64,000 nt of DNA from Cellulophaga sp. L1A9 (GTDB taxonomy: Bacteria > Bacteroidota > Bacteroidia > Flavobacteriales > Flavobacteriaceae). Positions 3,375 to 46,641 of this stretch are shown here, piece by piece; position 1 is the first letter of the stretch, and every line of letters starts with the position of its first letter. A program made the translations under genes and the position numbers. The stretch covers positions 4,092,001-4,156,000 of the forward strand of contig NZ_CP047027.1 in NCBI RefSeq assembly GCF_009797025.1. Direction: 5' to 3'. Under the pieces are notes generated by a model. The model saw only the letters and a list, made by a program, of their open reading frames with translations, was not told the DNA's origin and made no database searches.

Positions 3375-3680
3375 TTATATAGATTTTTCAATAGGAACTA
3401 CCACCGCTTTTAAGGGGTTATTAGTTTCTATACTTTTATTAAATTCTTTTATTAAATGGAATAAAGTATCAATATTTTCATCTTCGGTAAAAGAGAAAAA
3501 CATACTCGATTGACTTCCTCCTTTTCCTGAAGAAAACCAATTAGAAGCCATTAAAATTGCGGAATCACTTTTGTGCCCATCAATATCAGAACTACTAAAT
3601 TTCTCAATATTTGCATTTTTAAAAAGGGTTAAGACGTCTTTTTGGTATTCTTCAACTGCGGTAACGATAACTAATTTCAT
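3375..3680 (-). CDS. PII-like (ferredoxin-fold) protein of the RND operon
   Basis: 101 aa. It begins MKLVIVTAVEEYQKDVLTLF, a strand-then-helix start like the PII family (compare MKxIxAIIxPxKxxxV), followed by a strand/loop with IDGHK and a later strand ending KAVVVPIE. I read it as a stand-alone PII-like protein; small PII-like proteins (for example DUF3240) are known beside metal RND pumps. It lies 69 bp after the permease stop and before DUF2892. A PII-like trimer could sense a small molecule and gate the pump or report on it. Fold assignment is by pattern only; the ligand is unknown. Confidence 0.55.
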   Translation of the reverse strand: MKLVIVTAVEEYQKDVLTLFKNANIEKFSSSDIDGHKSDSAILMASNWFSSGKGGSQSSMFFSFTEDENIDTLFHLIKEFNKSIETNNPLKAVVVPIEKSI

Positions 3681-3749: not shown

Positions 3750-6700
3750 TTATTTATAATTTTTCTTTTCTATCATATAATATACTAAAGGAACCACTAA
3801 TAAGGTAAGCACCGTAGAAACAATAGTTCCTCCCATTAAAGAGATGGCTAAACCTTGAAAAATAGGATCAAATAAGATTACAAAAGCTCCAATAACAACG
3901 GTTCCAGCAGTTAATAGAATAGGAGTAGTACGCACAGCTCCTGCTTCAATAGCTGCTTGTTTTAAGGGTACGCCTTCTGCCGTTCTTATATTGATAAAAT
4001 CAATTAATAAAACAGAATTTCGTACCATAATTCCCGCTAAAGCAATCATCCCAATAAATGATGTTGCGGTAAAGAATGCTCCCATAATCCAGTGTCCTAA
4101 AATAATTCCGATTAAAGAGAGCGGAATTGCAACCATCATTACAATGGGAGCTTTAAAGTTTTGGAACCAACCTACAATTAAAATATAAATCAAGATAATA
4201 GCGCCTAAGAAAGCAATTCCTAAATCTCTAAATACTTCTAAAGTAATTTGCCATTCTCCATCCCATTTTACAGTATAATTGTCTTCAAACTCGGGCTGAC
4301 CTAAATACATTTCGTTTAATTCATAGCCTTTTGGTAGCGAAATTTCTTTTAGTTTTTCTTCCATTCCTAGAATAGCGTAGGCAGGACTTTCTAATTCTCC
4401 AGCCATATCTGCCATTACATAAACAACACGTTTTTGGTTTTTATGGTAAATACTTTTTGCAGCTATTCTTGCTGTAATCGTTACTAAATCTGCAATAGGA
4501 ACCATATTGCCCTGTTTCGATTTTACTTTCAATTGAGAAATATCTGTAACTGTAGATTTTTCCTTTTCATCTAAAGCCAATACTAAACCAATTTGGTTAA
4601 CAGCATCTTCATCATACAAATTCGTGATGGGCCTGTTAGACAATGCCATATTCATGGTATATGCTATTTGCTGTGGTGCCACTCCATACAACATGGCTTT
4701 TTCTTTATTAATGTCAAATTGATATTCGGTTTGGTCTGCTTCCACCATCCAATCAATATCCACCACATCATCTGTGTTTTTTAAGATATCCTGAACACTG
4801 TTTGCTATTTTAATTTGCTCACTATAATCTGGGCCATAAACTTCAGCAACAATTGTGGATAGTACTGGAGGTCCTGGTGGCACTTCAACCAATTTTACAT
4901 TTGCATTATATTTAGACGCAATTTTTTGAATGTCCGGGCGCAGTAATTTTGCAATATCATGACTTTGTGCAGTACGTTCTTCTTTATCAATTAAATTTAC
5001 TTGAATATCTGCCATATTACTTCCTCCACGTAAATCATAATGACGCACCAAACCGTTAAAGGTTATTGGAGCAGAGGTACCCACATAGTTTTGAAAGTTG
5101 ACTACTTCAGGTCTTGTCGCTAGGTATTGTGAAATTTCTTGTGTGACCACTCCAGTGCGTTCTAAGGTGGTTCCTTCCGGCATATCAATTACAATCTGAA
5201 ATTCATTCTTATTATCAAAAGGCAACATTTTCACTGCAACCGATTTGGTGAAAAATAACACCATGGTTATCATTAATAATAAAAATGTTCCTCCTAAAAA
5301 CAACCAACGTTTTGCTTTGTTTTCTAATAATGGACGTTCAAATTTGTTGTAAATTCTATAAATTAACGTCTCTTCAATAGGCTTTTCTTGTTTTTCTTCT
5401 ACACCTTTTTTCTCTTTTTCTCTTAAGAAAATATACCCTAAGTAAGGCGTGATCGTCAAAGCTACAAATAAGGATAAAATCATTGCTATAGACGCCCCTA
5501 TAGGCATTGGTGCCATATATGGACCCATTAATCCAGAGACAAAAGCCATAGGTAAAACAGATGCTATAACTGTAAATGTTGCTAAAATGGTTGGGTTCCC
5601 AACCTCGTTAATTGCATACAAAGCAGCATCTTTAAACGGTAAGCGTTTCATCTTAAAATGCCGGTGCATATTTTCGGCAATAATAATGGAGTCATCGACG
5701 ACAATTCCTGTAACAAACACTAAAGCGAATAAAGTAATACGGTTTAGCGTGTAATCCATCATATAATAGCTCAATAAGGTTAAGGCAAACGTAATTGGAA
5801 CGGATAAAAACACCACCAATCCACCACGCCATCCCATGGCTAACATCACTACAATAGTAACGGCGAAGATAGAACCAATAAGGTGCCACAACAATTCTGA
5901 TACTTTATGTGAAGCTGTTTCTCCGTAATTTCTGGTAATCTCTACATGAACATCATCAGGAATTAAATTGCTTCGTAAATGATCTGTTTTATTAATAATT
6001 ACTTCTGCAATTTTCATGGCATCTGCACCTTTTCGTTTTGCAACAGAAATAGTAACTGCAGGGTATTCTGATTTATATTCCGAAGATTTTACACTCCCTT
6101 TTCCATATCCTAAACTCACGTAATTTTGAGGTACTTCTGGACCATCAATAATTTTAGCTACTTGCTTTAAATAGATAGGTTGATTTTGTTGTACACCAAC
6201 TACTAAATTCTCAACATCTGTAACAGAGGCTAGAAAGTTTCCAGTATTTACTAGAAATTCTGTGTCATTTTTATCAAAGCTTCCTGCACTTAATTGACTG
6301 TTGTTAGCCGTAATCATTTCAGAAACCGTTAAGAAGTCTAACCCACTAGATGCTAATTTGTCTTTATCTAATACGACACGTAGTTGACGGTTTCTACCTC
6401 CAATTTGATGCGTAGACGAAACGTCATTTACTTTTTTTATTTCGGCTTCCAATTCTTGTGCCATTTGGCTTAATTGGTAATCGTCATAATTTTCACTCCA
6501 CAAGGTTAAGCCTAACATTGGTACATCGTCTATAGCACGCGTTTTTACCAATGGAAACGTCACACCAGCTGGCATCTCGTCCATGTGTTTGTTAATTTCA
6601 TTGTATAGTTTTACAAAGGAGCGCTCAATATCTTCGCCCACATAAAACTGAACAATCACCATTCCTTGCTCTTTCATGGAAGTAGAATACACATATTCTA

Positions 6701-6944
6701 CCCCTTTGATGTTTGAAATTAACTGTTCTAATGGCTTAATTACACGTGATTCTACCTCCGTTGGGCTCGCACCCGGATAGCCCACAAAAATGTCTGCCAT
6801 GGGCACATCAATTTGTGGCTCTTCTTCACGTGGAATTAAAAACGAACTATACACACCAACTACCATAAATACAATCATCAAAAGCACTGTAAGCTTCGAT
6901 TGCATAAAGACTTTGGCAATTTTACCTGCGATTCCTTCTTTCAT
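3750..6944 (-). CDS. RND efflux permease, HAE1-like
   Basis: 1064 aa from ATG at 6944; the frame is open 8 codons further but that part lies in a repeat-like element. The start gives the usual cytoplasmic stub then TM1 (LTVLLMIVFMVVGVYS). Two repeats of one TM, a large periplasmic loop and five TMs are visible. TM4 holds GIVVDDSIIIAEN with the paired Asp of proton-driven HAE1 pumps (single Asp in CusA). The TM10 site that is Lys in AcrB reads Arg here (GIMVRNSVLLIDF). The substrate is therefore more likely organic or thiol-like than Cu/Ag, but that is inference. It partners the adaptor and TolC genes upstream. Confidence 0.93.
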   Translation of the reverse strand: MKEGIAGKIAKVFMQSKLTVLLMIVFMVVGVYSSFLIPREEEPQIDVPMADIFVGYPGASPTEVESRVIKPLEQLISNIKGVEYVYSTSMKEQGMVIVQFYVGEDIERSFVKLYNEINKHMDEMPAGVTFPLVKTRAIDDVPMLGLTLWSENYDDYQLSQMAQELEAEIKKVNDVSSTHQIGGRNRQLRVVLDKDKLASSGLDFLTVSEMITANNSQLSAGSFDKNDTEFLVNTGNFLASVTDVENLVVGVQQNQPIYLKQVAKIIDGPEVPQNYVSLGYGKGSVKSSEYKSEYPAVTISVAKRKGADAMKIAEVIINKTDHLRSNLIPDDVHVEITRNYGETASHKVSELLWHLIGSIFAVTIVVMLAMGWRGGLVVFLSVPITFALTLLSYYMMDYTLNRITLFALVFVTGIVVDDSIIIAENMHRHFKMKRLPFKDAALYAINEVGNPTILATFTVIASVLPMAFVSGLMGPYMAPMPIGASIAMILSLFVALTITPYLGYIFLREKEKKGVEEKQEKPIEETLIYRIYNKFERPLLENKAKRWLFLGGTFLLLMITMVLFFTKSVAVKMLPFDNKNEFQIVIDMPEGTTLERTGVVTQEISQYLATRPEVVNFQNYVGTSAPITFNGLVRHYDLRGGSNMADIQVNLIDKEERTAQSHDIAKLLRPDIQKIASKYNANVKLVEVPPGPPVLSTIVAEVYGPDYSEQIKIANSVQDILKNTDDVVDIDWMVEADQTEYQFDINKEKAMLYGVAPQQIAYTMNMALSNRPITNLYDEDAVNQIGLVLALDEKEKSTVTDISQLKVKSKQGNMVPIADLVTITARIAAKSIYHKNQKRVVYVMADMAGELESPAYAILGMEEKLKEISLPKGYELNEMYLGQPEFEDNYTVKWDGEWQITLEVFRDLGIAFLGAIILIYILIVGWFQNFKAPIVMMVAIPLSLIGIILGHWIMGAFFTATSFIGMIALAGIMVRNSVLLIDFINIRTAEGVPLKQAAIEAGAVRTTPILLTAGTVVIGAFVILFDPIFQGLAISLMGGTIVSTVLTLLVVPLVYYMIEKKNYK

Positions 6945-6951
6945 ATTCCTG

Positions 6952-6979
6952 TCCCTAACCCTTTCCAAAGGAAAGAGAA
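6952..6979. repeat. REP-like element, TCCCTAAC type (copy A)
   Basis: 28 bp beginning TCCCTAAC and containing the near-palindrome CTTTCCAAAGGAAAG, just 5' of the permease start. It matches the element at 8216-8243 at about 22 of 28 positions. Confidence 0.55.
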
Positions 6980-7071: not shown

Positions 7072-8190
7072 TCACTTAGTTTCCATACTGGCTTCCTTCC
7101 CTTTGGGAAGGATGGAGGATGGGATAATTTTGGCTCCATTAAACAATTTACCATCAGCAGAAACGATATACGCTTCGTCTGAATTTAAACCAGATAATAC
7201 CTCTACTTGATTGCCAAAAGTTCTTCCTAAGCGCAACCATCGTAGCATTGCAGTGTTACTCTGACTTACGGTATACACCCCAGATAATTGTCCGTTAGTT
7301 ATAATTACATCGGTAGGGATTAACACCATGGCCGATTTTGCTTTTCGTTCTACAGGAAATTGCACCGTTGTAAACATTCCTGATAAAATGTGAGCATCTG
7401 TTTTATCTAAAGCTATTTTTACTAAGTATTGTCCGCCTGTGTTTTTAGCAGATGTACTTACTTCTGTAACTTTTCCTTTTATGGTTTTATTAATAGATTT
7501 TACCAATACAGCGACAGTGCTTCCTTTTTCAATTTCAGAAATTTCAGATTCAGGAACCATAGCCATCACCTCAAAATGACCTGGTGTTTCTATGCTTATT
7601 AATGGTGCGCCAGGATTTGCCATATTTCCTGCTTCCACATTTTTGCTGGTTACGGTTCCATCAAAAGGAGCCGTAATATTACTGTAAGCAAATTGTGCAT
7701 TTACTTCATTTTTCATTTGGTTGGCAGCTTCTAAACGTGCCTTTGCCATTTCATAATTTGCCGTCATATCGTCCATCTCTTTTTGAGAAGCACTATTTTC
7801 TGAAAATAAATTTTTAAAACGATTGTAGTCTTTTTGAGCATTATTAAAAGCAGCAGTAGCTTCTGTAATTCCTGCATTTACTTGCGCTCTCTTGGCCTGT
7901 AAATCGCTATTGTTAATAGAAACTAACAATTGCCCTTTACGTACTTTATCTCCAACGTTTATGTGTACTTTATTTACGTACCCCATCATTCTAGTGCTTA
8001 AATCTGCACTATTAGTGGCTTGGATTTTTCCGCTTACACTTAAAAAAGGACTAGTGCCATTCGTTTCTACTTGACTCACTTCTACATGAATTGCGGGTGA
8101 ATTATCTGCAACAGGCTTCTTGTCTTCACTGCCACAACTAGCAACTAACAATGCGAAAGAAAATGCTACGATGGTATATGTTTTTTTCAT
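7072..8190 (-). CDS. RND periplasmic adaptor (membrane-fusion) lipoprotein
   Basis: 372 aa from ATG at 8190; 14 further in-frame codons upstream derive from an intergenic repeat. Signal peptide with lipobox LVASC predicts an inner-membrane lipoprotein facing the periplasm. Order: barrel-sandwich first half (MGYVNKVHINVGDKVRKGQ), a coiled-coil hairpin of about 70 residues (QAKRAQVNAG to ANQMKNEVNA), sandwich second half (ITAPFDGTVTSKNVEAGN), then the beta-barrel and membrane-proximal domains. The C-terminal codons (SSILPKGKEAS) are encoded by a palindromic repeat-like element (7092-7123), so the very end is probably acquired rather than conserved. Confidence 0.93.
   Translation of the reverse strand: MKKTYTIVAFSFALLVASCGSEDKKPVADNSPAIHVEVSQVETNGTSPFLSVSGKIQATNSADLSTRMMGYVNKVHINVGDKVRKGQLLVSINNSDLQAKRAQVNAGITEATAAFNNAQKDYNRFKNLFSENSASQKEMDDMTANYEMAKARLEAANQMKNEVNAQFAYSNITAPFDGTVTSKNVEAGNMANPGAPLISIETPGHFEVMAMVPESEISEIEKGSTVAVLVKSINKTIKGKVTEVSTSAKNTGGQYLVKIALDKTDAHILSGMFTTVQFPVERKAKSAMVLIPTDVIITNGQLSGVYTVSQSNTAMLRWLRLGRTFGNQVEVLSGLNSDEAYIVSADGKLFNGAKIIPSSILPKGKEASMETK
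7092..7123. repeat. REP-like element, CCTTCCC type (copy C)
   Basis: Contains CCTTCCC-TTT-GGGAAGG (7095-7111), a 7-bp stem with a 3-nt loop, followed by GATGGAGGATGGG. It overlaps the 3' coding end of the adaptor gene and resembles the degenerate copy at 8267-8290. Confidence 0.55.
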
Positions 8191-8215
8191 TTTATATTTT
8201 ATTTTATTTTTTCTT

Positions 8216-8243
8216 TCCCTAACGCTCTTCAAAGCAAAAGGAA
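8216..8243. repeat. REP-like element, TCCCTAAC type (copy B)
   Basis: Degenerate second copy of the 6952-6979 element, lying just 5' of the adaptor start, in the same orientation relative to the following gene. Confidence 0.45.
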
Positions 8244-8296: not shown

Positions 8297-9604
8297 TTAT
8301 TTCGTTAAAAATTGTAAATAAGCTTGTGCGTAATTGTATTCAAAAATAGTTTGGTAATATTCCAATTGTTTTTGAGCATATTGGGTATCGGCGAGTAATA
8401 AATCTGATGTTTTTTCTAAACCTTCCTTAAACCTATTGGTTCTAATACGCAATGATTCTTCTGATTGTTCCATGGCTAATGCACTCAGTTTTAATTTATT
8501 TTTGGAATCTAAAAAAGAACGTTTTGCTTTATTTAATTCTAAATTACTTTGTGATACATATTGATTGTATTCTAATTTAGATTTTTCGAATTCGGACTTA
8601 CTTTTTTGCACTTTGCCAAAACGTTTCGCCCCTTGAAAAATATCCCAGCTTAATTGTGCACCAAATAGGTATCCATTGGCATCGCCTTGAAAAATTTGAT
8701 CGTCATACAATTCATAACTACCAAAGGCATTTAATCGTGGCAGAAAGGCCATTTTATCTGCTTTATTCATGGCTTCATAAGCATTTGACGCTAATTGCAT
8801 CGCTTTAATATCTGAACGGTTTTCAGAAATTGTCTTATCTTCAATAGTCAACGTAGAAACGGTTAATTCATCAGCAGGTATGTATACTACATAGGTTTTA
8901 TCATTCATTAAAAATGATAAATAATTAGATGCATTTTGAACATTACTCTTAGCGGTTTGTAATTGATTTTGAATTTCGGTAACACGTACTTCAACATTCA
9001 ATACATCTGCACGTTGTAAATACCCTTGTTTAAAACTATCATCTGCTAATTTTTTATTAGCATTTGCAGCGTCTAAGGCTTTTTCTAAAACCTCCACTGC
9101 TTTGTAAGCTAATTGTAATTGCATGTATGCTTTATCGACTTCAAATACTAAATAATCTTGTGTACGTTCTGTCTTTAAAGACATAGCGTCCATTTTAGAT
9201 TTAGCAGCTTTACGCTGATAAAGTCCGTCGAAATTTATTAATGGTTGCTGAATTTCAAATTTTGTAGCGTAATTTTCAATTTGGGAAGGATCATTTAATA
9301 ATGCTGGACTAAAATCATTTGCTGTTAAAATTTCCTGATTTAATTTAGATCCAAAAGCCATTAAAGGATTTGTGGTTGCCATTGCAGTGTGACTTGCTGT
9401 AATGTTGGGTAAAAACACAGCATTGGTTTGTCTATAATCTGCTTGAGCTTGAGTGAATTCTTCTTCTGAAATTTTAATAGCTGTATTATGGTCAGACACT
9501 TTAGTCTGGACTTCAGTTTTAGTAATTGGCACTAATTCTTGTGCATGCAAAAATAGAGAGCCAAAACATAAAATGAGCATTGGTAAGTATGTTGTTTTTT
9601 TCAT
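8297..9604 (-). CDS. TolC-family outer-membrane efflux protein
   Basis: 435 aa from ATG at 9604, chosen because a signal peptide (about 1-21, ending LHA before QE) follows directly and because the promoter's predicted -7 box covers the 10 codons upstream. The body is two repeats of long amphipathic helices (for example LAYKAVEVLEKALDAAN and YNQYVSQSNLELNKAKR) and two short strand regions, as in the TolC trimer. First gene of the tolC-adaptor-RND-PII-DUF2892 operon, with its own Crp/Fnr-type promoter. Confidence 0.93.
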   Translation of the reverse strand: MKKTTYLPMLILCFGSLFLHAQELVPITKTEVQTKVSDHNTAIKISEEEFTQAQADYRQTNAVFLPNITASHTAMATTNPLMAFGSKLNQEILTANDFSPALLNDPSQIENYATKFEIQQPLINFDGLYQRKAAKSKMDAMSLKTERTQDYLVFEVDKAYMQLQLAYKAVEVLEKALDAANANKKLADDSFKQGYLQRADVLNVEVRVTEIQNQLQTAKSNVQNASNYLSFLMNDKTYVVYIPADELTVSTLTIEDKTISENRSDIKAMQLASNAYEAMNKADKMAFLPRLNAFGSYELYDDQIFQGDANGYLFGAQLSWDIFQGAKRFGKVQKSKSEFEKSKLEYNQYVSQSNLELNKAKRSFLDSKNKLKLSALAMEQSEESLRIRTNRFKEGLEKTSDLLLADTQYAQKQLEYYQTIFEYNYAQAYLQFLTK

Positions 9605-9623: not shown

Positions 9624-9667
9624 CAAAAATACATTAGTAAATAACCGAAGTCAGTAACAAAGGTTAC
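9624..9667 (-). promoter_or_regulatory. tolC-RND operon promoter with GTAAC-N4-GTTAC operator
   Basis: Perfect palindrome GTAACAAAGGTTAC (9654-9667, centre 9660.5). On the minus strand a perfect -7 element TATTTTTG runs 9631 to 9624, so the palindrome centre lies 36.5 bp from its last base, about -43 from the expected transcription start. That is the class II position of a Crp/Fnr-family activator. The same box and spacing occur before sqr. Confidence 0.75.
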
Positions 9668-10318: not shown

Positions 10319-11776
10319 CTATTCAGGAATTAACCACCAAAATGGTCGCATTTTAGCTTTATAAATAAAGGCATAGTGCAACGCCAATTTCAGCCAATGC
10401 CCTGCTAAACCAATTTCTCCAAATGTTTTTCCTAATTGTCTTCCTTGAGTTTTCGGGTATTTTTCATAATCTGGAACAATTGGAAATGTAGTGATGCTTA
10501 CACCACTTCCTTTAGTGATACCATAACCCGCAGAAGCAATACAAGCGGCTCCCATATTACCTAAACTCCCTTTGTGATTCAAGGATTCTTTTCCGCCTTT
10601 TATAGAATCTATAATATTGTCGGCCACCAATTTTGCGGTCATACCAGATGGCATTCCAGTACGTGGTGGTGCAGGGGAAATAGCTGTACCGTTTTTGCTC
10701 ATTCTAGGTTTAGAAATAGCATGTGGAGGAGCAAAGGCAATTCCTGGGGCGAAAATATTTTTATAACTTGGGTTTTGATAGGTTTCTGGCCAATCTTTAA
10801 CGGACCATTCTTCGTAAGGTTTTGGTGTGTAATCAGCATCAACTAACATAAACCCTTTAAAAAGTTTTTCTGTAATGTCGTTTTCATTTTTATCATAGGC
10901 TTTAAAACCATGACCAGAAAATGAAGGTATTAACATGGCGAAATCATAAGCTTCTGTTTTATATTCTCCATCTAAATTTTCGTAATGTGCAATTCCATCT
11001 TCAATCTTGTTAACTCCAGCTCCAAGAATCCATTTTATATCGCGATCTTCAAAAATCATTTCAACCATTTCATGAGATTTCATGGTCATGCTTCCGTAAC
11101 TTAATAACATACCATCCATTCCAAAATCACCTAATTGATATTCATTAGAAATCCAAGTAACTTCAGCCATATCACGTACATTATGCTCGCGTAATTCTTG
11201 TTCTACATTTAAAATATACTCAAAAGCAGCACCTTGACAGGTAGATTTTGCATGGCCAGTACCAATTAGAATTTTAACCTTCTTACCAGATTTCATTTCT
11301 TGAATTACGTTATTTAATCCTTCCCAGGCATGATCTGAATGTGCATAGGTACAAACGGAATACGTTTTATTCTGTCCTGGAATTAAACCTTCAGTCGCTT
11401 CAAAATTCAATTTAGGACCAGTGGCATTGATCAAATAATCGTAGGTTACTTTTTCTTGCTGGCCTTTATTTTCCCCTGCTACATATTCAGATAAAACATA
11501 AGGCTTTTCTTCATTTTTATCGCCTTCCGGAAAAAAGGCTATTGCTTTTGCTTGCTTGTAGCCAATACCTTTTTTCTTATATAAAGGTGCTAAGGGAAAA
11601 TGGATTTTGTCAGAATTCATTCTGCCAATTCCTACCCAAATATTAGAAGGAACCCATTGGTAATTACTGTTAGGAGATACCACAATAATTTCATGGTTTT
11701 TAGACAGCTTTCTTCGTAGATGTGAAGCTGCTACATGGCCAGAAATACCTGCTCCTAAAATAACAATTTTAGACAT
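10319..11776 (-). CDS. sqr: Sulfide:quinone oxidoreductase-type flavoprotein
   Basis: 485 aa. N-terminal FAD-binding GxGxxG (IVILGAGISGHVAA, 4-17), an ATG region TYDYLINATGPKLNF (111-125) and a second nucleotide-type motif ILIGTGHAKSTC (169-180). The whole protein has only three cysteines, Cys142 (YSVCTYAH), Cys180 (KSTCQGAA) and Cys412 (GAACIASAG). Three conserved cysteines in this layout are the redox and polysulfide-building residues of SQRs. The C-terminal amphipathic end (YKAMRPFWWLIPE region) fits monotopic membrane binding. It would oxidise sulfide in the periplasm-facing membrane and reduce menaquinone. It is followed by a 45-aa ORF and a terminator. Very similar flavocytochrome c subunits are less likely since no haem partner is present. 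Confidence 0.85.
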   Translation of the reverse strand: MSKIVILGAGISGHVAASHLRRKLSKNHEIIVVSPNSNYQWVPSNIWVGIGRMNSDKIHFPLAPLYKKKGIGYKQAKAIAFFPEGDKNEEKPYVLSEYVAGENKGQQEKVTYDYLINATGPKLNFEATEGLIPGQNKTYSVCTYAHSDHAWEGLNNVIQEMKSGKKVKILIGTGHAKSTCQGAAFEYILNVEQELREHNVRDMAEVTWISNEYQLGDFGMDGMLLSYGSMTMKSHEMVEMIFEDRDIKWILGAGVNKIEDGIAHYENLDGEYKTEAYDFAMLIPSFSGHGFKAYDKNENDITEKLFKGFMLVDADYTPKPYEEWSVKDWPETYQNPSYKNIFAPGIAFAPPHAISKPRMSKNGTAISPAPPRTGMPSGMTAKLVADNIIDSIKGGKESLNHKGSLGNMGAACIASAGYGITKGSGVSITTFPIVPDYEKYPKTQGRQLGKTFGEIGLAGHWLKLALHYAFIYKAKMRPFWWLIPE

Positions 11777-11792: not shown

Positions 11793-11836
11793 TAAAATTA
11801 ATGAGTTTACCACCTTTCTACAGTAACATTGGTTAC
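11793..11836 (-). promoter_or_regulatory. sqr promoter with GTAAC-N4-GTTAC operator
   Basis: Palindrome GTAACATTGGTTAC (11823-11836, centre 11829.5); on the minus strand TAATTTTA (11800-11793), one base from TAnnTTTG, ends 36.5 bp from the centre. Box and spacing equal those before tolC. A degenerate partner (GTAAC-N5-GTCAC, 11855-11869) lies further upstream. Confidence 0.7.
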
Positions 11837-12005: not shown

Positions 12006-12461
12006 ATGTTAACATGGAAAAACATTATTTCGTTTGCCACAACAGGAAATCCTGAGCCTGATAAACGAGTAGAGAAAACTGAAGAAGAATGGAAAGCGCA
12101 ATTAACTCCTGAGCAATATAGAGTTATGCGTAAAAAAGGTACAGAAGCACCACATACCGGAGCGCTTTGTACTAGTTACGAATCAGGTCAATATAATTGT
12201 GCTTGTTGCAATACTCCTCTTTTTGATTCGACCATAAAATTTGAATCTGGAACAGGTTGGCCTAGTTTTACGCAACCTATAAAAGAAAATGCAATTAAGT
12301 ATTTTAAAGATTCTTCTTTTGGGATGGTTCGGGTAGAAGTATTGTGTAATACTTGTGATGCGCATTTAGGACACATTTTTCCTGATGGACCAGAACCAAG
12401 TGGACTTCGATATTGCATAAATTCGGAATCTATGGTGTTAGATTCTTCAGAGGTAAATTAA
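12006..12461 (+). CDS. msrB: Peptide-methionine (R)-S-oxide reductase
   Basis: 151 aa from ATG 12006 (an alternative ATG at 11976 would add 10 residues). MsrB reduces the R epimer of methionine sulfoxide. Zinc-binding pairs are visible as CACC (in the NCACCNTPLF segment) and CNTC (VLCNTCDAHLGHIF), and the catalytic cysteine lies in RYCINS near the C-terminus. Substrate-pocket residues W and F are in GTGWPSF. No signal peptide, so cytoplasmic. It leads a three-gene msrB-msrA-msrA unit with gaps of 12 bp each, diverging from sqr, so oxidised-protein repair sits beside sulfide oxidation. Confidence 0.95.
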   Translation: MLTWKNIISFATTGNPEPDKRVEKTEEEWKAQLTPEQYRVMRKKGTEAPHTGALCTSYESGQYNCACCNTPLFDSTIKFESGTGWPSFTQPIKENAIKYFKDSSFGMVRVEVLCNTCDAHLGHIFPDGPEPSGLRYCINSESMVLDSSEVN

Positions 12462-12473
12462 AATTAAGTTGAA

Positions 12474-13001
12474 ATGTCACAAAATGAAACGGCTACTTTT
12501 GGTGGTGGTTGCTTCTGGTGTTTAGAAGCTATTTTTAGACAGATTGAAGGTGTTACGGATGTAGTTTCGGGATATGCAGGCGGTAATTGCCCTGGTACAC
12601 CAACCTACAGAGAAGTGTGTTCTGGTAAGACGGGACACGCAGAAGTGATTAGGGTTGAATTTGATCGTGGTATTATTCGTTATAAAGATCTTTTAAATAT
12701 CTTTATGAACAATCATAACCCTACCTTAAAAACAAACATTAATGGTACGTATGGTTCACAATACCGCTCTATAATTTTGTATGAATCGAAGGCACATCAA
12801 AAAATAGCCCAAGAAATAATTTATTTACAGCATGAAAAGGGTACTAAAAAGATACTTACAGAAGTAATAGAATTAAAACAGTTTTACCAAGCAGAAGAAT
12901 ACCATCAGGATTATTTTACCAAAAATAAGGAAGCTGCCTATTGTAGTCGGATAATCACGCCGAAATTAGAAAAATTAAACAAGGAATTATATAAAAAATA
13001 G
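12474..13001 (+). CDS. msrA: Peptide-methionine (S)-S-oxide reductase
   Basis: 175 aa. Catalytic motif GGGCFWCLEAIF near residue 11 (GCFWC form), GYAGG, and YREVCSGKTGHAEVIRVEFD typical of MsrA; GTYGSQYRSIILY marks the substrate pocket. Reduces the S epimer of methionine sulfoxide using thioredoxin. No signal peptide. The second MsrA copy follows 12 bp downstream and differs at the motif (GCFWG), so the two are paralogues with different resolving-cysteine arrangements rather than a recent duplication. Confidence 0.95.
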   Translation: MSQNETATFGGGCFWCLEAIFRQIEGVTDVVSGYAGGNCPGTPTYREVCSGKTGHAEVIRVEFDRGIIRYKDLLNIFMNNHNPTLKTNINGTYGSQYRSIILYESKAHQKIAQEIIYLQHEKGTKKILTEVIELKQFYQAEEYHQDYFTKNKEAAYCSRIITPKLEKLNKELYKK

Positions 13002-13013
13002 AACCTTAAATTT

Positions 13014-13505
13014 ATGAGTGCATTTAAAAAAGCATATATCGCAGGTGGATGTTTTTGGGGAATGGAAGATCTATTTCGCGTACGTCCAGGAATTAAAGAT
13101 ACGGAGGTAGGTTACATTGGTGGAGATAATGAAAATCCTACCTATCACAACCATTCTAGCCATGCAGAAGGGGTAGAGCTTACCTACGATCCTTCAGAAA
13201 CTTCGTTTAAAGAGATTTTAGATTATTTCTTTAGAATTCATAACCCTACAACATTAGACCAACAAGGAAATGATAGAGGCTCTAGTTACCGATCTACTAT
13301 CTTTTTTCAGAATGAAGAAGAGAAAGCAATAGCCGAAGAAGTAATTGCTTTAGTCAATAAGTCTAACAGATGGGGAGCAGATGCTGTAACCACCTTAGAA
13401 CCTTATACCACCTTTTGGTTGGCAGAACCAGAACACCAAGATTTTTTGTTGAAAAGGCCTAATGGATATACATGCCATTTTGAGCGCTTTGCTACATTTT
13501 TATAA
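13014..13505 (+). CDS. msrA: Second MsrA-type methionine sulfoxide reductase
   Basis: 163 aa. GGCFWGMEDLF motif near residue 12, GYIGGDNENPTYHNHSSHAE, and DRGSSYRSTIFF. It is shorter than the first copy. Only two cysteines are evident: the catalytic one and one in YTCHFERF close to the C-terminus, which is placed to act as resolving cysteine. Cytoplasmic by absence of a signal. A terminator hairpin follows after 6 bp. Confidence 0.93.
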   Translation: MSAFKKAYIAGGCFWGMEDLFRVRPGIKDTEVGYIGGDNENPTYHNHSSHAEGVELTYDPSETSFKEILDYFFRIHNPTTLDQQGNDRGSSYRSTIFFQNEEEKAIAEEVIALVNKSNRWGADAVTTLEPYTTFWLAEPEHQDFLLKRPNGYTCHFERFATFL

Positions 13506-41828: not shown

Positions 41829-42956
41829 TTAGTCCATGAAGTACCAGAACTTAGGTTCTGTACCTAAATCTTCTTTTAGTCTAAACACTTTTTTATTTTC
41901 TAACACCCATCGTATGGTGCTGTTGGGATCTAATAAGTTTCCGAAAATCCTAGCTCCAGTTGGGCACGCTTCTACACAGGCAGGGTTTTTTCCTTTACGG
42001 GTACGTTGCACACAGAAGGTACATTTTTCCATGACCCCTTTTTTACGCATTCTGTTCCCTAAGTAGTGTTGGTTCTTATTTACTTCATTTTCTGGTACTT
42101 CAGGTTTACTCCAGTTAAAGCGTCTTCCATCGTATGGGCATGCAGCCATACAATAGCGACAACCAACACACCAATCATAATCTATAACGACAAGACCATC
42201 TTCTTCTTTCCAAGTTGCTTGTACCGGGCAAACCTCTACACAGGGTGGATTATCACAATGAAAACACTGCGTGCCCATATAGAAGTGACCTTCTGCAGGC
42301 ACCTCATGATAGTAGTTATCATCTGCTTTATCAAATTTGAATCCCTCGCCATCTTTCATTTCGTGAATTCGGATGTATTGCATTTCGGAGTTCCTATCTT
42401 GGTTATTCTCTTCTACACAAGCACTTACACAATTCATATACCCTTGGCACTTTGAGATGTTGAAGGCATAACCAAAAAGTACATCTTCAGCCGCATTTTC
42501 TGCGGTCATACTTATACGCTTATCGGTTCTCAATTCATAAGAACGCATGAGTCTGTCTATAGTTCCTTTTTTTTCATCATCGGTCATTAGTTTATAGTTT
42601 CCTTTAAACTGTTCTTCCCAATCAATCTGTGCTTTTTCTTTACTTTCATCTCCCGTAGTTACACTACACGAAGTACTGACGGCTCCTGCACCAATAAGAA
42701 GGCTAGCCGTTAATTTTCTAAAAGCACTTCTTCTATCCATTTTTACATCAAAAACTTGATCAAAACCATCTTTATGTCTTTCTTCACCTATAGAAGCATT
42801 GATTGCTGCCTCGTAAAATTCATCGGCGCTTAATTCTTCTTCTTTAGGAGCACTAGAACAGCTTCCTTCAGATTTACCGCAACCACAAGAACCAGAAGCT
42901 TCTTTTTTGTTGTTTAGACCTAGATCTAGAGAGTACCATTTTTTATTTTCGCTCAT
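41829..42956 (-). CDS. NrfC/HybA-type Fe-S subunit with N-terminal extension
   Basis: 375 aa. Three complete 4Fe-4S cysteine sets: Cys231/234/239/243, Cys263/266/269/273 and Cys312/315/327/331. The fourth is Cys170, Tyr173, Cys176, Cys180: Tyr stands where the second Cys is expected. A twin-Arg motif MDRRSAFRKL begins only at residue 73, after 72 residues that hold the cluster SCGCGKSEGSC (23-33); the helix ends in STSC (Cys97), a possible lipobox. Likely a periplasmic or lipid-anchored electron carrier between the NrfD-like protein and the tetrahaem cytochromes. 10 bp after the cytochrome gene. Confidence 0.85.
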   Translation of the reverse strand: MSENKKWYSLDLGLNNKKEASGSCGCGKSEGSCSSAPKEEELSADEFYEAAINASIGEERHKDGFDQVFDVKMDRRSAFRKLTASLLIGAGAVSTSCSVTTGDESKEKAQIDWEEQFKGNYKLMTDDEKKGTIDRLMRSYELRTDKRISMTAENAAEDVLFGYAFNISKCQGYMNCVSACVEENNQDRNSEMQYIRIHEMKDGEGFKFDKADDNYYHEVPAEGHFYMGTQCFHCDNPPCVEVCPVQATWKEEDGLVVIDYDWCVGCRYCMAACPYDGRRFNWSKPEVPENEVNKNQHYLGNRMRKKGVMEKCTFCVQRTRKGKNPACVEACPTGARIFGNLLDPNSTIRWVLENKKVFRLKEDLGTEPKFWYFMD

Positions 42957-42966
42957 AGCTTTATTT

Positions 42967-43605
42967 TTAGTGATCTAAATCTTCTAAACCTTCTTTACGT
43001 TCTATAGCCGTTTGTGTATTAAATTGTACGGGCCATCTTTTTTCAAAACTAGGACTGTGTGGATTGTGACAATTAACACATGTATTTGATGCTCTTGGAG
43101 GAGCCCATCCTGCTACTTTTTTACCATGCGCGCCACCTTTCCAATCCTCAAATTGGCTTGAGTGACATTGTGCACAGAGTTTGTAACTTAGATTGAAATC
43201 TATATTTTTGCCTGTAAGGGTATTTAAGTTATTCATATCGGCTCCATTATGGCATGTAGCGCAATTCATGGCATCACCACTGGCGTGATTTAACTTAATA
43301 TTCCAATGTGCTTTTTGAATATCAATTCCTTTCATTTGTGAAACAGGTTTGCTATGACATTCTATGCACGCAAAAGATTTTATCTGTCCTTTTCGTTCTG
43401 GGATTAGGAATGTAAACTCCCCTTCAGTAATTTGAATTAATTCCGTATCCGCTAGTAACTCCTCAGAAGTGAGGGGACCGTGATAAGGTTTGCTTTCTCC
43501 TTCTATTTTATCAGATATTGAATGATATCCATCTTTTTCTTTACAAGAAAATAGGGATACTCCTAGAAGTAATACTACGTAATATATTAGCGTTCTATTT
43601 TTCAT
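42967..43605 (-). CDS. Tetrahaem cytochrome c lipoprotein
   Basis: 212 aa. Lipobox LFSC. Four CxxCH motifs: CIECH, CATCH, CAQCH and CVNCH. Overlaps the end of the preceding tetrahaem gene by 11 bp. It resembles NapC/NrfH-derived or c3-like small multihaem proteins but no precise family is recognised. Lipid-anchored electron carrier of the nap operon. Confidence 0.82.
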   Translation of the reverse strand: MKNRTLIYYVVLLLGVSLFSCKEKDGYHSISDKIEGESKPYHGPLTSEELLADTELIQITEGEFTFLIPERKGQIKSFACIECHSKPVSQMKGIDIQKAHWNIKLNHASGDAMNCATCHNGADMNNLNTLTGKNIDFNLSYKLCAQCHSSQFEDWKGGAHGKKVAGWAPPRASNTCVNCHNPHSPSFEKRWPVQFNTQTAIERKEGLEDLDH

Positions 43606-44311
43606 TTAGTTTATCGAATTGTCTTAGAGATGTACTAGTATCAACATTGGGTTGTTTATTGCTTTTTGGTAAATGACATTGTCTGCAATTTATACGTTCA
43701 GGATGTGACACTCTTATTTCTTTTGGAGCACTTGGTCCTCCATGACAAGAAATACAACTTTCGCGCATTTGTAATTGATGCGGAATCATAGGCGGACTTC
43801 CCAACAAGGCATTATTTGCGCCTACACCTACTTTAGGCGGTTCTGGTTTAGAAAAAGCAAAGGCCTTAAACGTTGTGTTTGTGTTTTTTGTGACATGGCA
43901 TTGCCGACAGTTAATCATCTCTGGATGTGGAGTAACAGGAGCATAGGCACCAAATTTGGCTACAAAGCCACCATTCTTATGACATTGGATACACGTGTTT
44001 CCTCCAAAGCTACGTTCTTTCGCTACGGGGTGCGGAATACTAGGTGGAGCTCCCGGATAAGCTCTGTTGTCGTAATAACTATCTAATGAGCGTTGGTGAT
44101 CTTCATCTACAGGCATATTTAAATAGTCTAAACCTGCATCGTCAAACCGTCTGAAAACACCACTTTCTGCAGGGATAAAGTTTCCTGTAGGCGTTTCAAT
44201 AATAGGCGTATAGGCTTCTTCTAATCCTTGCTGATAGCTGTAGTTCCACACAACGATAAACGCTATGAAGATGACTACAAAAAACGATATGATCCCGAGT
44301 CTCTTTTTCAT
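43595..44311 (-). CDS. NapB-like tetrahaem cytochrome c
   Basis: 238 aa. An uncleaved N-terminal TM (about 5-25). Four CxxCH: CIQCH, CRQCH, CISCH and CRQCH. RAYPGAPPSIPHPV, HPEMINCRQCH and, in the second half, PPMIPHQLQMRESC and HPERINCRQCH are the NapB sequence set occurring twice, so this looks like a tandem NapB duplication (NapB normally has two haems). Partner of NapA, 2 bp after its stop. Confidence 0.82.
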   Translation of the reverse strand: MKKRLGIISFFVVIFIAFIVVWNYSYQQGLEEAYTPIIETPTGNFIPAESGVFRRFDDAGLDYLNMPVDEDHQRSLDSYYDNRAYPGAPPSIPHPVAKERSFGGNTCIQCHKNGGFVAKFGAYAPVTPHPEMINCRQCHVTKNTNTTFKAFAFSKPEPPKVGVGANNALLGSPPMIPHQLQMRESCISCHGGPSAPKEIRVSHPERINCRQCHLPKSNKQPNVDTSTSLRQFDKLNEK

Positions 44312-44313
44312 AG

Positions 44314-46641
44314 TTATACTCTTTCAACTTTAACCGCACATTTTTTATAATCTGGTTCTTTAGAAATAGGGCAGAAGGAGTCCAAGGTGACATCATTGAT
44401 GAGCATACTTTCATCAAAGAAAGGTACAAATACTTGTCCTTTGGTTGGTAATCCTCTTTCGTTGATGGACGCCGGTAATGTACAAGAACCACGACGCGAG
44501 GTGACTTTAATCTTTTCTCCATTTCTAATTCCTAGAGACTTTGCATCATCTGGATGAAACTCTACATAAGCATTTGGCATTGCTTGATGTAATACTGGAA
44601 TTCTACGTGTCATAGATCCTGTATGCCAATGTTCTACAACGCGACCAGTGTTTAGCCAGAACGGATATTCTTGGTCTGGTTTTTCTGGAGCCTCTTCAAA
44701 AGGACGCTGCCAGATCACCGCTTTTCCATCTGGTTTTCCATAAAAATGAAAGTCTTCACCATTGGAACAAGCAGGGTCATATTTAGCATTGTAGCGCCAT
44801 TGTGTGGACTTCCCATCTACATACGGCCAGATTACTCCAGACTCTTTTTGAAGAACTTCTAGAGGCGCCATTCCATGTTTTGAACCCTCGTGAAATTGTC
44901 GGTATTCGTTATATATTTCTTCTACGTGATTTTCTTTGCTATACGGGAACAGGTCTGCAAACCCCATTCGTTTTGCTACTTCAATAAACATCCAAGTATC
45001 TGCGGTTGTATCTCCAGGACCTTCAATCATTTTTTGCCAATACTGTGTTCTACGTTCAGAATTACCGTACAGTCCACCTTTTTCAATATGCCATGAAGCA
45101 GGAAGAATTACATCAGCTACATCAGAAGTAGGAGTAGGAAAAACGTCTGAAACCACAACAAAGCATGATTTTTTTTGCATTGCAGGACGGTACCGGCTGG
45201 TTTTAGGGAGCGAGACTAACGGATTCGTCGCCTGTATCCATATAAAATTAATATCGCCGCGATCTACAGCTCTAAACATTTCGGTAGCATGATAGGTAGG
45301 TTTAGATGGAATACGTTCTACAGGAACTTTCCATATTTTAGCAGCCATTTCTCTATCTTTCTTATTGGTTACTACGCCGTGTGGAAGTTTATGCGTAAAA
45401 GTTCCTACCTCACGAGCGGTACCACAAGCAGAAGGCTGACCTGTTAATGAGAAAGGGCCGTTTCCTGGCTGCGAAATTTTACCAGTAAGTAAATGAATAT
45501 TGTAAACAAGGTTATTAATCCATGTTCCTCGGGTATGTTGGTTCATTCCCATACACCAATAAGAAACCACTTTTTTATTCGGATCTCCATAAATAGAAGC
45601 CAAATACTTAATATCTTTTACAGATACTTTAGAATATTTAGAAACCTTCTCTGGACTATACTCTTTTAGAAATTCTTTGTATGCTTCAAAGTCTATTTTT
45701 TCGGGCTTATCGGTAAACGTAAAATTGTCTTCTAAGCCATATCCAATATTTGTAAGACCTTTACTAAAGCTACAATGTTTCTCTACAAAAGATTTGTTCA
45801 CCCAGCCATTTTTTATAATCTCGTAACAAATGGCATTCGCTACAGCTAAATCTGTTTGAGGTTCAAATAAAATAGATCTGTCAGAAGCGGTACTAGAACG
45901 TGTTGTCCGTGTGGCAAAATCAATAATTTTGGCACCACGAGTGGCTTTTTGTTCTAACATTCTTGAGAATAATACAGGATGCATTTCTGCCATATTGTTT
46001 CCCCAAGTAATAAAATAATCTGCGTGATCTATATCTTCGTAGCAGCCCATAGGTTCATCTGCTCCAAAAGAGGTTAAGAACCCTGTAACGGCACTGGCCA
46101 TACATAATCTAGCATTACAATCTAGATTGTTAGTTCCAATAGCTCCTTTCATTAATTTAGAGGCAATATATCCTTCTGGTATGGTAGACTGGCCCGATGT
46201 ATACATGGCAACAGCATCCTTACCATGAGTTGCAATAGTTTCTTTCATTTTGGAAGCGACAAGATCTAACGCTTCACTTATAGGTGTTTGAACATATTTT
46301 CCATTTTTCTTTACCAAAGCATGTGTAAGTCGGTCTTTAGATTGAATACACATAATCTGATGATATCCTTTTACACACAATAAACCTTTATTTACAGAAG
46401 AATTGGGATCACCCTTAACAGCTACCGCTTTTCCGTTTTCAGTTCCAACAAGAATGCCACAACCTACACCGCAAAATCTACAAGGTCCTTTTTTCCAATC
46501 TAGGTTGGCGCCTTCAGGAATTCCTTTTTCTTGTTCACTCGCAAATATAATTCCAGGGAACATAGATGCTGCTGCGGTGATTGCAGACAACATTGCCATT
46601 TTTTTTATAAAACTCCTTCTATTTGTTACAGAATCGTACAT
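44314..46641 (-). CDS. napA: Periplasmic nitrate reductase catalytic subunit
   Basis: 775 aa. Twin-Arg signal NRRSFIKKMAML (about 7-18). 4Fe-4S set CRFCGVGCGIL with a fourth Cys in GLLCVKGYH. Molybdenum ligand Cys in NARLCMASAVTGF, the NapA signature, and MNQHTRGTW. C-terminal MGD-binding region WLNTGRVVEHWHTGSM. Reduces nitrate to nitrite in the periplasm. Second gene of napD-napA-..., 12 bp after napD. Confidence 0.96.
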   Translation of the reverse strand: MYDSVTNRRSFIKKMAMLSAITAAASMFPGIIFASEQEKGIPEGANLDWKKGPCRFCGVGCGILVGTENGKAVAVKGDPNSSVNKGLLCVKGYHQIMCIQSKDRLTHALVKKNGKYVQTPISEALDLVASKMKETIATHGKDAVAMYTSGQSTIPEGYIASKLMKGAIGTNNLDCNARLCMASAVTGFLTSFGADEPMGCYEDIDHADYFITWGNNMAEMHPVLFSRMLEQKATRGAKIIDFATRTTRSSTASDRSILFEPQTDLAVANAICYEIIKNGWVNKSFVEKHCSFSKGLTNIGYGLEDNFTFTDKPEKIDFEAYKEFLKEYSPEKVSKYSKVSVKDIKYLASIYGDPNKKVVSYWCMGMNQHTRGTWINNLVYNIHLLTGKISQPGNGPFSLTGQPSACGTAREVGTFTHKLPHGVVTNKKDREMAAKIWKVPVERIPSKPTYHATEMFRAVDRGDINFIWIQATNPLVSLPKTSRYRPAMQKKSCFVVVSDVFPTPTSDVADVILPASWHIEKGGLYGNSERRTQYWQKMIEGPGDTTADTWMFIEVAKRMGFADLFPYSKENHVEEIYNEYRQFHEGSKHGMAPLEVLQKESGVIWPYVDGKSTQWRYNAKYDPACSNGEDFHFYGKPDGKAVIWQRPFEEAPEKPDQEYPFWLNTGRVVEHWHTGSMTRRIPVLHQAMPNAYVEFHPDDAKSLGIRNGEKIKVTSRRGSCTLPASINERGLPTKGQVFVPFFDESMLINDVTLDSFCPISKEPDYKKCAVKVERV

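Follow-up and report, generated by a model that had tools for sequence, protein, structure and literature searches.

Described sulfane-sulfur sensors include CstR, SqrR/BigR, FisR and MarR-family proteins (PMC9774590 and PMC11211675, available text in part), and di- or polysulfide links between cysteines are reported for FisR, SqrR and CstR (excerpts of PMC9774590). FisR activates sqr, persulfide dioxygenase and tauE genes, its sensor for reactive sulfur being a set of three conserved cysteines (parts of PMC9774590 and PMC7315123); in this it resembles the regulator proposed here, but it is a sigma-54 activator, whereas our candidate is a Crp/Fnr protein; the word RND is absent from PMC7315123. 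SqrR/BigR (ArsR family) and CstR (CsoR family) are likewise cysteine persulfide/polysulfide sensors placed over sulfide-handling genes, but they are repressors with other folds (excerpts of PMC9774590), while the DNA element described below stands at a fixed, activator-like position. In Pseudomonas aeruginosa, MexR connects the RND pump mexAB-oprM with sulfane sulfur, yet MexR is a MarR-family repressor and its pump a multidrug pump (excerpts of PMC11211675), whereas the pump studied here appears as a member of a sulfide-oxidation regulon. Within the Crp/Fnr fold itself, a Crp-like protein is persulfidated in A. baumannii (PMC7315123, available text in part). PgRsp and HcpR of P. gingivalis are Bacteroidota Crp/Fnr proteins, and PgRsp carries Cys76 and Met78 against a C-x-M motif here (compared by motif), but the roles reported for them are in heme, redox and nitrosative stress (excerpts of PMC6955866 and PMC12040651), and the word sulfide is absent from the main texts of both papers.

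Among the matches listed in a search of the open-licence literature, none described a Crp/Fnr regulator of sulfide-oxidation or sulfane-sulfur genes, and none of those listed in the search on an RND pump tied to sulfide described such a link, MexR having come through the regulator search. At class II promoters of E. coli CRP, the palindromic site lies near −41.5. The present system shares with it the fold, the palindromic site and the position near −41.5, and differs in its GTAAC half-site, its Bacteroidota −7 element and the cysteines in its pocket segment.

The DNA analysed here (the window) is a stretch of 64,000 nucleotides from Cellulophaga sp. L1A9. Exact GTAAC-N4-GTTAC boxes lie on its minus strand upstream of both tolC (9654–9667) and sqr (11823–11836). 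Read on that strand, the tolC site runs from 9667 down to 9624 as GTAACCTTTGTTAC - 22 bp - TATTTTTG and the sqr site from 11836 down to 11793 as GTAACCAATGTTAC - 22 bp - TAATTTTA, where TATTTTTG (9624–9631, minus strand) and TAATTTTA (11793–11800, minus strand) are the −7 elements of the predicted tolC and sqr promoters. The box centre and the final base of the −7 element are 36.5 bp apart at both sites. The boxes and their spacing are just as the preliminary description gave them, and the distance fits a class II activator bound near −41.5. Box, 22-bp spacer and −7 element TAnnTTT(G/A) (TANNTTTR) together form a 44-bp element, which has only these two exact matches in the window. Scanning the window with up to three mismatches gave five elements in all, none of which lies upstream of the genes at 41829–46641, which by their sequence encode a putative nap-type nitrate reductase. 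One genome was taken from each of 120 Flavobacteriaceae genera; 86 of these genomes contain the exact element, 259 copies in all, against three matches in the reversed control, and in a wider Bacteroidota set the exact element is found in 29 of 296 genomes against none in the control. The 44-bp element is real and conserved, and it stands ahead of a set of sulfide and sulfane-sulfur genes that includes the TolC-RND pump; it is also specific enough that a text search can map the core regulon in a genome of the Flavobacteriaceae.

That gene set was read from nine exact elements in the 5.07-Mb host genome. They head genes for an MBL-fold protein with rhodanese domains (MBL-rhodanese), a SulP permease, a Dps-like ferritin, a peroxiredoxin (with a second MBL-rhodanese gene next in line), the tolC-RND operon, sqr, a rhodanese operon, a SorA-like enzyme and, divergently, cydAB; the names MBL-rhodanese, SorA and SQR denote homology that falls under the NCBIfam equivalog cut-offs, and the SorA-like enzyme accordingly scores below the SorA cut-off. 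Dps and the pump belong to the set though they are not sulfur enzymes. Counting the first gene at 134 distinct element sites, the host genome included, gave TolC at 31, TauE/SafE at 25, MBL-rhodanese at 19 (17 + 2), Sqr at 7, peroxiredoxin and rhodanese at 5 each, CydA and SulP at 4 each, a Tll0287-like protein at 3, Dps, SorA and the regulator at 2 each and another gene at 1, with no reference match at 19 and no open reading frame at 5, a tally that is biased by the many loci fetched through TolC or the regulator. A second count, of 69 elements with at most one mismatch in 14 stretches and biased in its turn by the choice of stretches for their element clusters, gave MBL-rhodanese 12, TauE 10, Sqr 9, rhodanese and TolC 4 each, peroxiredoxin and CydA 3 each, others 9, unmatched 10 and no open reading frame 5. 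The TauE homologues at 25 of the 134 sites are 43–56% identical to the TauE of the host genome (5005575–5006378), which itself has no element with up to three mismatches in the scanned stretch.

A one-mismatch element also stands ahead of a DUF983 gene in the host genome (C1:1154333-1154737, equivalent to L066:6334-6738), and DUF983-like genes at loci L066, L103 and L105 are headed by the element or by a one-mismatch form (GTGAC). The DUF983-like protein is a possible new member of the sulfur regulon, the Pfam scan behind that name having covered the host-genome copy.

The pump operon is encoded on the minus strand and begins with a tolC-like outer-membrane factor (8297–9604; PF02321 OEP, 150.7 bits, above cut-off), whose reading frame is open from 9634 with the ATG at 9604 as its likely start and whose product scores under the cut-offs of both NCBIfam TIGR01845 and TIGR01844. 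An RND periplasmic adaptor follows (7072–8232; TIGR01730 RND_mfp, 219 bits, above cut-off; PF16576), then an RND permease (3750–6968; PF00873 ACR_tran, E 1.9e-165; top solved relative by sequence 6vej_A) and, at the end of the operon, a 101-residue protein (3375–3680) with no Pfam match at E ≤ 1. TolC matches (E ≤ 1e-40) were found in 47 of the 120 Flavobacteriaceae genomes; in the 46 that have upstream DNA (the contig of G015 ends short of it), the element upstream of tolC is exact in 34, has one mismatch in five and two mismatches in one, and is missing in six, among them a distant match in G033 at 30% identity. In a second sample, the best 80 of 206 named tolC loci found, which span Winogradskyella, Olleya, Lacinutrix, Polaribacter, Gelidibacter, Bizionia, Formosa, Tenacibaculum, Cellulophaga and others, the element is exact in 75, has one mismatch in four and is missing in one (Lutibacter sp. 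B1, L280). The 6-kb flanks of these 80 loci hold TolC and the adaptor in all 80, the permease in 79 and the 101-residue gene in 60, and also sqr on the same strand in 36, CydB in 21, CydA in 18, the regulator discussed below in 10 (49–68% identity), rhodanese in nine and peroxiredoxin in seven.

Alternatively, the pump could be part of the cell's general reaction to anaerobiosis or envelope stress, with no sulfur compound among its substrates and only the activator in common with the sulfur genes. Many of the RND proteins nearest to the permease in sequence bear multidrug names, and Dps too lies under the element; against this stand the adjacency of sqr, cydAB, peroxiredoxin, rhodanese or regulator genes to the pump in part of the 80 loci and the retention of the element, with at most one mismatch, in 79 of them, and we consider this account of the pump rather unlikely. 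Regulon membership and synteny suggest that the pump substrates may be reactive sulfur compounds or damaged molecules.

The second gene with a box in the window, sqr, encodes a sulfide:quinone oxidoreductase-like flavoprotein (10319–11776, minus strand; Pyr_redox_2) that is homologous to solved SQRs over residues 3–288 (chain 3sz0_A, E 1.3e-31) and scores 55 bits against the NCBIfam type III SQR model, under the cut-off of 525. Its 22 orthologues in the 120 genomes carry the exact element in five cases, one mismatch in 11, two in three and none in three; the element is weaker at sqr than at tolC. The regulator is present in 95 of 120 genomes, the pump in 47 and this type of sqr in 22, so the regulon does not have oxidation by this SQR at its core. 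Divergent from sqr lie genes that by their sequence are presumably msrB/msrA-like (12006–13505, plus strand); since no element faces them they were kept out of the regulon. Their position beside sqr hints at a connection with damage to thiols or methionine.

The candidate regulator is a 210-residue protein encoded at G000:C1:4997384-4998016, 0.9 Mb away and outside the window. It belongs to the Crp/Fnr superfamily, with PF00027 at 31.6 bits (cut-off 27.5) and PF13545 at 26.0 bits, just below the cut-off of 27, and its structural model (pLDDT 87.9, pTM 0.68) matches the folds of CRP, NtcA and 3dv8. The model places a helix at residues 76–81 of the cassette segment, with lower confidence over residues 81–90 (mean 62). 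In this effector-pocket segment lies a C-x5-CC motif formed by Cys77, Cys83 and Cys84, and in CRP the corresponding segment forms the nucleotide-phosphate cassette. All three cysteines are invariant in 50 of 50 aligned regulators (42–100% identical to the first), and in a wider set Cys77 is kept in 51 of 51, Cys83 in 46 and Cys84 in 45, most of these proteins reading G(E/D)TC-x-M-(T/S)-L-x-CC through the cassette segment. The protein therefore has the two or more conserved cysteines looked for in a persulfide sensor. It does not resemble a cAMP-dependent CRP, scoring 46.9 bits against NF008732 (cut-off 266) and having an altered cassette segment, and its Pfam matches are cNMP_binding and a Crp-type HTH only, which sets it apart from the sigma-54 activator FisR. 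FNR carries N-terminal cysteines for a 4Fe–4S cluster; as the 210-residue regulator has no cysteine before residue 77, a cluster of that type is unlikely. In the regulators of loci L198 and L206 the CC pair is lost and Cys77 is kept, making them natural variants.

Taking the element, the gene set and the protein together, we think it probable that both boxes are operators of one activator, this Crp/Fnr protein, which would respond to a reactive-sulfur signal and control a sulfur regulon together with the pump. The activator would bind both boxes near −41.5, in the class II position, and so replace a −33 element. Cys77, Cys83 and Cys84 would serve as its sensor for reactive sulfur arising from sulfide, perhaps by forming di- or polysulfide links by analogy with FisR, SqrR and CstR, and this signal would lead the protein to bind or to activate. 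The active regulator would then promote sulfide oxidation by SQR, the handling of sulfane sulfur by MBL-rhodanese proteins and rhodanese, the oxidation or transport of sulfite or other sulfur species by SorA-like, TauE, SulP and YeeE-type proteins, the production of cytochrome bd, an oxidase that tolerates sulfide, and peroxide and iron defence through peroxiredoxin and Dps. The RND pump, finally, would carry reactive sulfur species, or cell products that these have damaged, out of the cell. The preliminary description had placed sqr and the RND operon under one activator responsive to sulfide or reactive sulfur, and sequence comparisons in this genome and about 410 others lend that proposal strong support; the sulfide reading of the regulon is, more generally, well supported by comparative genomics.

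The same regulator and regulon might nonetheless answer to a heme-bound gas (NO, CO), to oxygen or to the general redox state, a signal modelled on proposals for Porphyromonas PgRsp and HcpR. PgRsp, at 207 residues, binds heme, its Cys76 and Met78 resemble the C-x-M of the regulator, and the template of its model, 3dv8 (PMC6955866, available text in part), is also the regulator's best PDB match by sequence; P. gingivalis HcpR is among the fold matches of the regulator model, and cydAB, Dps and peroxiredoxin would suit redox stress as well. However, single replacements of Cys76, Met78 or His85 left the heme spectra of PgRsp unchanged (PMC6955866, same excerpts), the invariant feature of the regulator is its three cysteines, and genes for sulfide, sulfane sulfur, sulfite and sulfur transport dominate the gene set. 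We regard a heme or redox signal as quite unlikely, and favor reactive sulfur read by the cysteines.

More tentatively, and as a possibility to which we would not yet commit, the regulator may represent an undescribed Crp/Fnr family, present in the Flavobacteriaceae and further Bacteroidota, that has turned the nucleotide pocket into a three-cysteine sensor of reactive sulfur and whose regulon includes a dedicated sulfur-exporting RND pump, the exported material being sulfane sulfur or sulfur-damaged molecules. If this is true, the Crp/Fnr family with the cysteine pocket would give the Bacteroidota a sulfide response of their own. Through membership in its regulon it would also bring RND efflux into the defence against sulfide, and what sulfide-exposed bacteria expel through such a pump would become a directly testable question.

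Assignment of the boxes to this protein draws on location and co-occurrence. The regulator reading frame ends at 4998016 and the box of the rhodanese operon starts at 4998022, 6 bp on; of 57 regulator loci, 23 have an element no more than 400 bp from the gene, and in 20 of the 23 it lies downstream of the gene on its own strand. Regulator matches of at least 190 bits are present in 95 of the 120 Flavobacteriaceae genomes, and the element is found in 84 of the 95 compared with two of the 25 without such a match (G010 and the 87%-complete G088). In the Bacteroidota set, by a table counted by eye, a regulator scoring 190 bits or more is present in 30 genomes, of which 23 carry the element, versus six of the 266 others, the seven with the regulator and lacking the exact element being G172, G156, G285, G306, G295, G152 and G408. 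The activator of both boxes is thus most likely the 210-residue protein (C1:4997384-4998016) and its orthologues, to judge by these distributions. A search for the box and for a second Crp/Fnr gene, as earlier advised, has yielded a fitting gene, albeit far outside the window, while the notion of a "second" such gene proved too simple for a genome that encodes 19 cNMP-domain proteins.

That a different one of these 19 binds the box is very improbable. The Crp/Fnr gene adjoining the window (C1:4091126-4091827) has proximity in its favor, with the tolC box about 10 kb away, but it has matches above 300 bits in only three of 120 genomes, while the box occurs in 86, and its tally reaches 77 genomes only with weaker matches of 165 bits or less; it was rejected as the regulator on this count. 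The paralogue at 2424534–2425229 (a score of 200 bits or more in 69 of 120 genomes) was rejected as well, showing no association with the box (53 of 69 genomes with it versus 33 of 51 without, p = 0.16). These two represent the coverage of the comparison among the 18 other cNMP-domain proteins, and the 210-residue protein remains the preferred activator.

The palindrome and the full element differ in how far they exceed chance. With up to two mismatches, the 14-bp palindrome has 31 matches in the window against 23.7 expected, a number reached by eight of 100 shuffles, and genome-wide the exact palindrome occurs 14 times against 11 in the reversed control; as it is not enriched, the 14-mer alone was dropped as evidence. 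Nine of the 14 palindromes are the exact 44-bp elements described above. The other five comprise four within coding sequence (L001, L002, L006 and L007) and one intergenic box (L008) that has a −7 element only with one mismatch, on either side. Rather than preceding unrelated genes at random distances, which would have spoken against the preliminary description, the boxes that lie outside coding sequence keep the exact spacing in nine of 10 cases, mostly ahead of sulfur genes. Because the density of TANNTTTR in the window is only 0.0024 per oriented position, its occurrence at exactly 22 bp in nine of 28 oriented genomic boxes has p ~1.6e-17, and it is this fixed spacing that exceeds chance. 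The spacing is equally fixed in other genomes: among 460 oriented boxes, drawn from loci fetched by protein queries only, TANNTTTR lies at 22 bp in 184, and no other distance between 0 and 54 bp accounts for more than six, which is the fixed placement looked for in a class II site, although the genera are related and p-values overstate their independence. In a profile of 56 non-redundant tolC sites, picked by requiring a match to the two half-boxes and to most of the −7 element, the spacer is low in information except for a TGA after the box. Chance matches in AT-rich DNA, an explanation that the unenriched 14-mer might invite, are already contradicted by the fixed 22-bp spacing, the conservation across genera and the near-zero controls, and have practically no likelihood left.

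The exact element is lacking in 11 Flavobacteriaceae genomes that have the regulator. Ten of these were read (G099 was left out), and in seven the regulator gene is closely followed by a variant element, which reads GTAAC-N4-ATTAC or -ATCAC and keeps the 22-bp spacer. The variant precedes a membrane protein of 185–187 residues, one copy of which was scanned and matched PF04143 (Sulphur transport). A scan of 36 loci gave 22 matches versus none in reversed sequence (134 kb). The regulator loci L198 and L200 have no element. At L194, which is not among the seven, the palindrome is exact but its −7 element, which faces the regulator gene, is poor. The variant-box clade suggests that box and regulator drift together, as far as can be judged from these sequences. 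The variant box is seen in the clade of loci L195, L196, L197, L199, L201, L202 and L203, and also at L204–L207 and L209.
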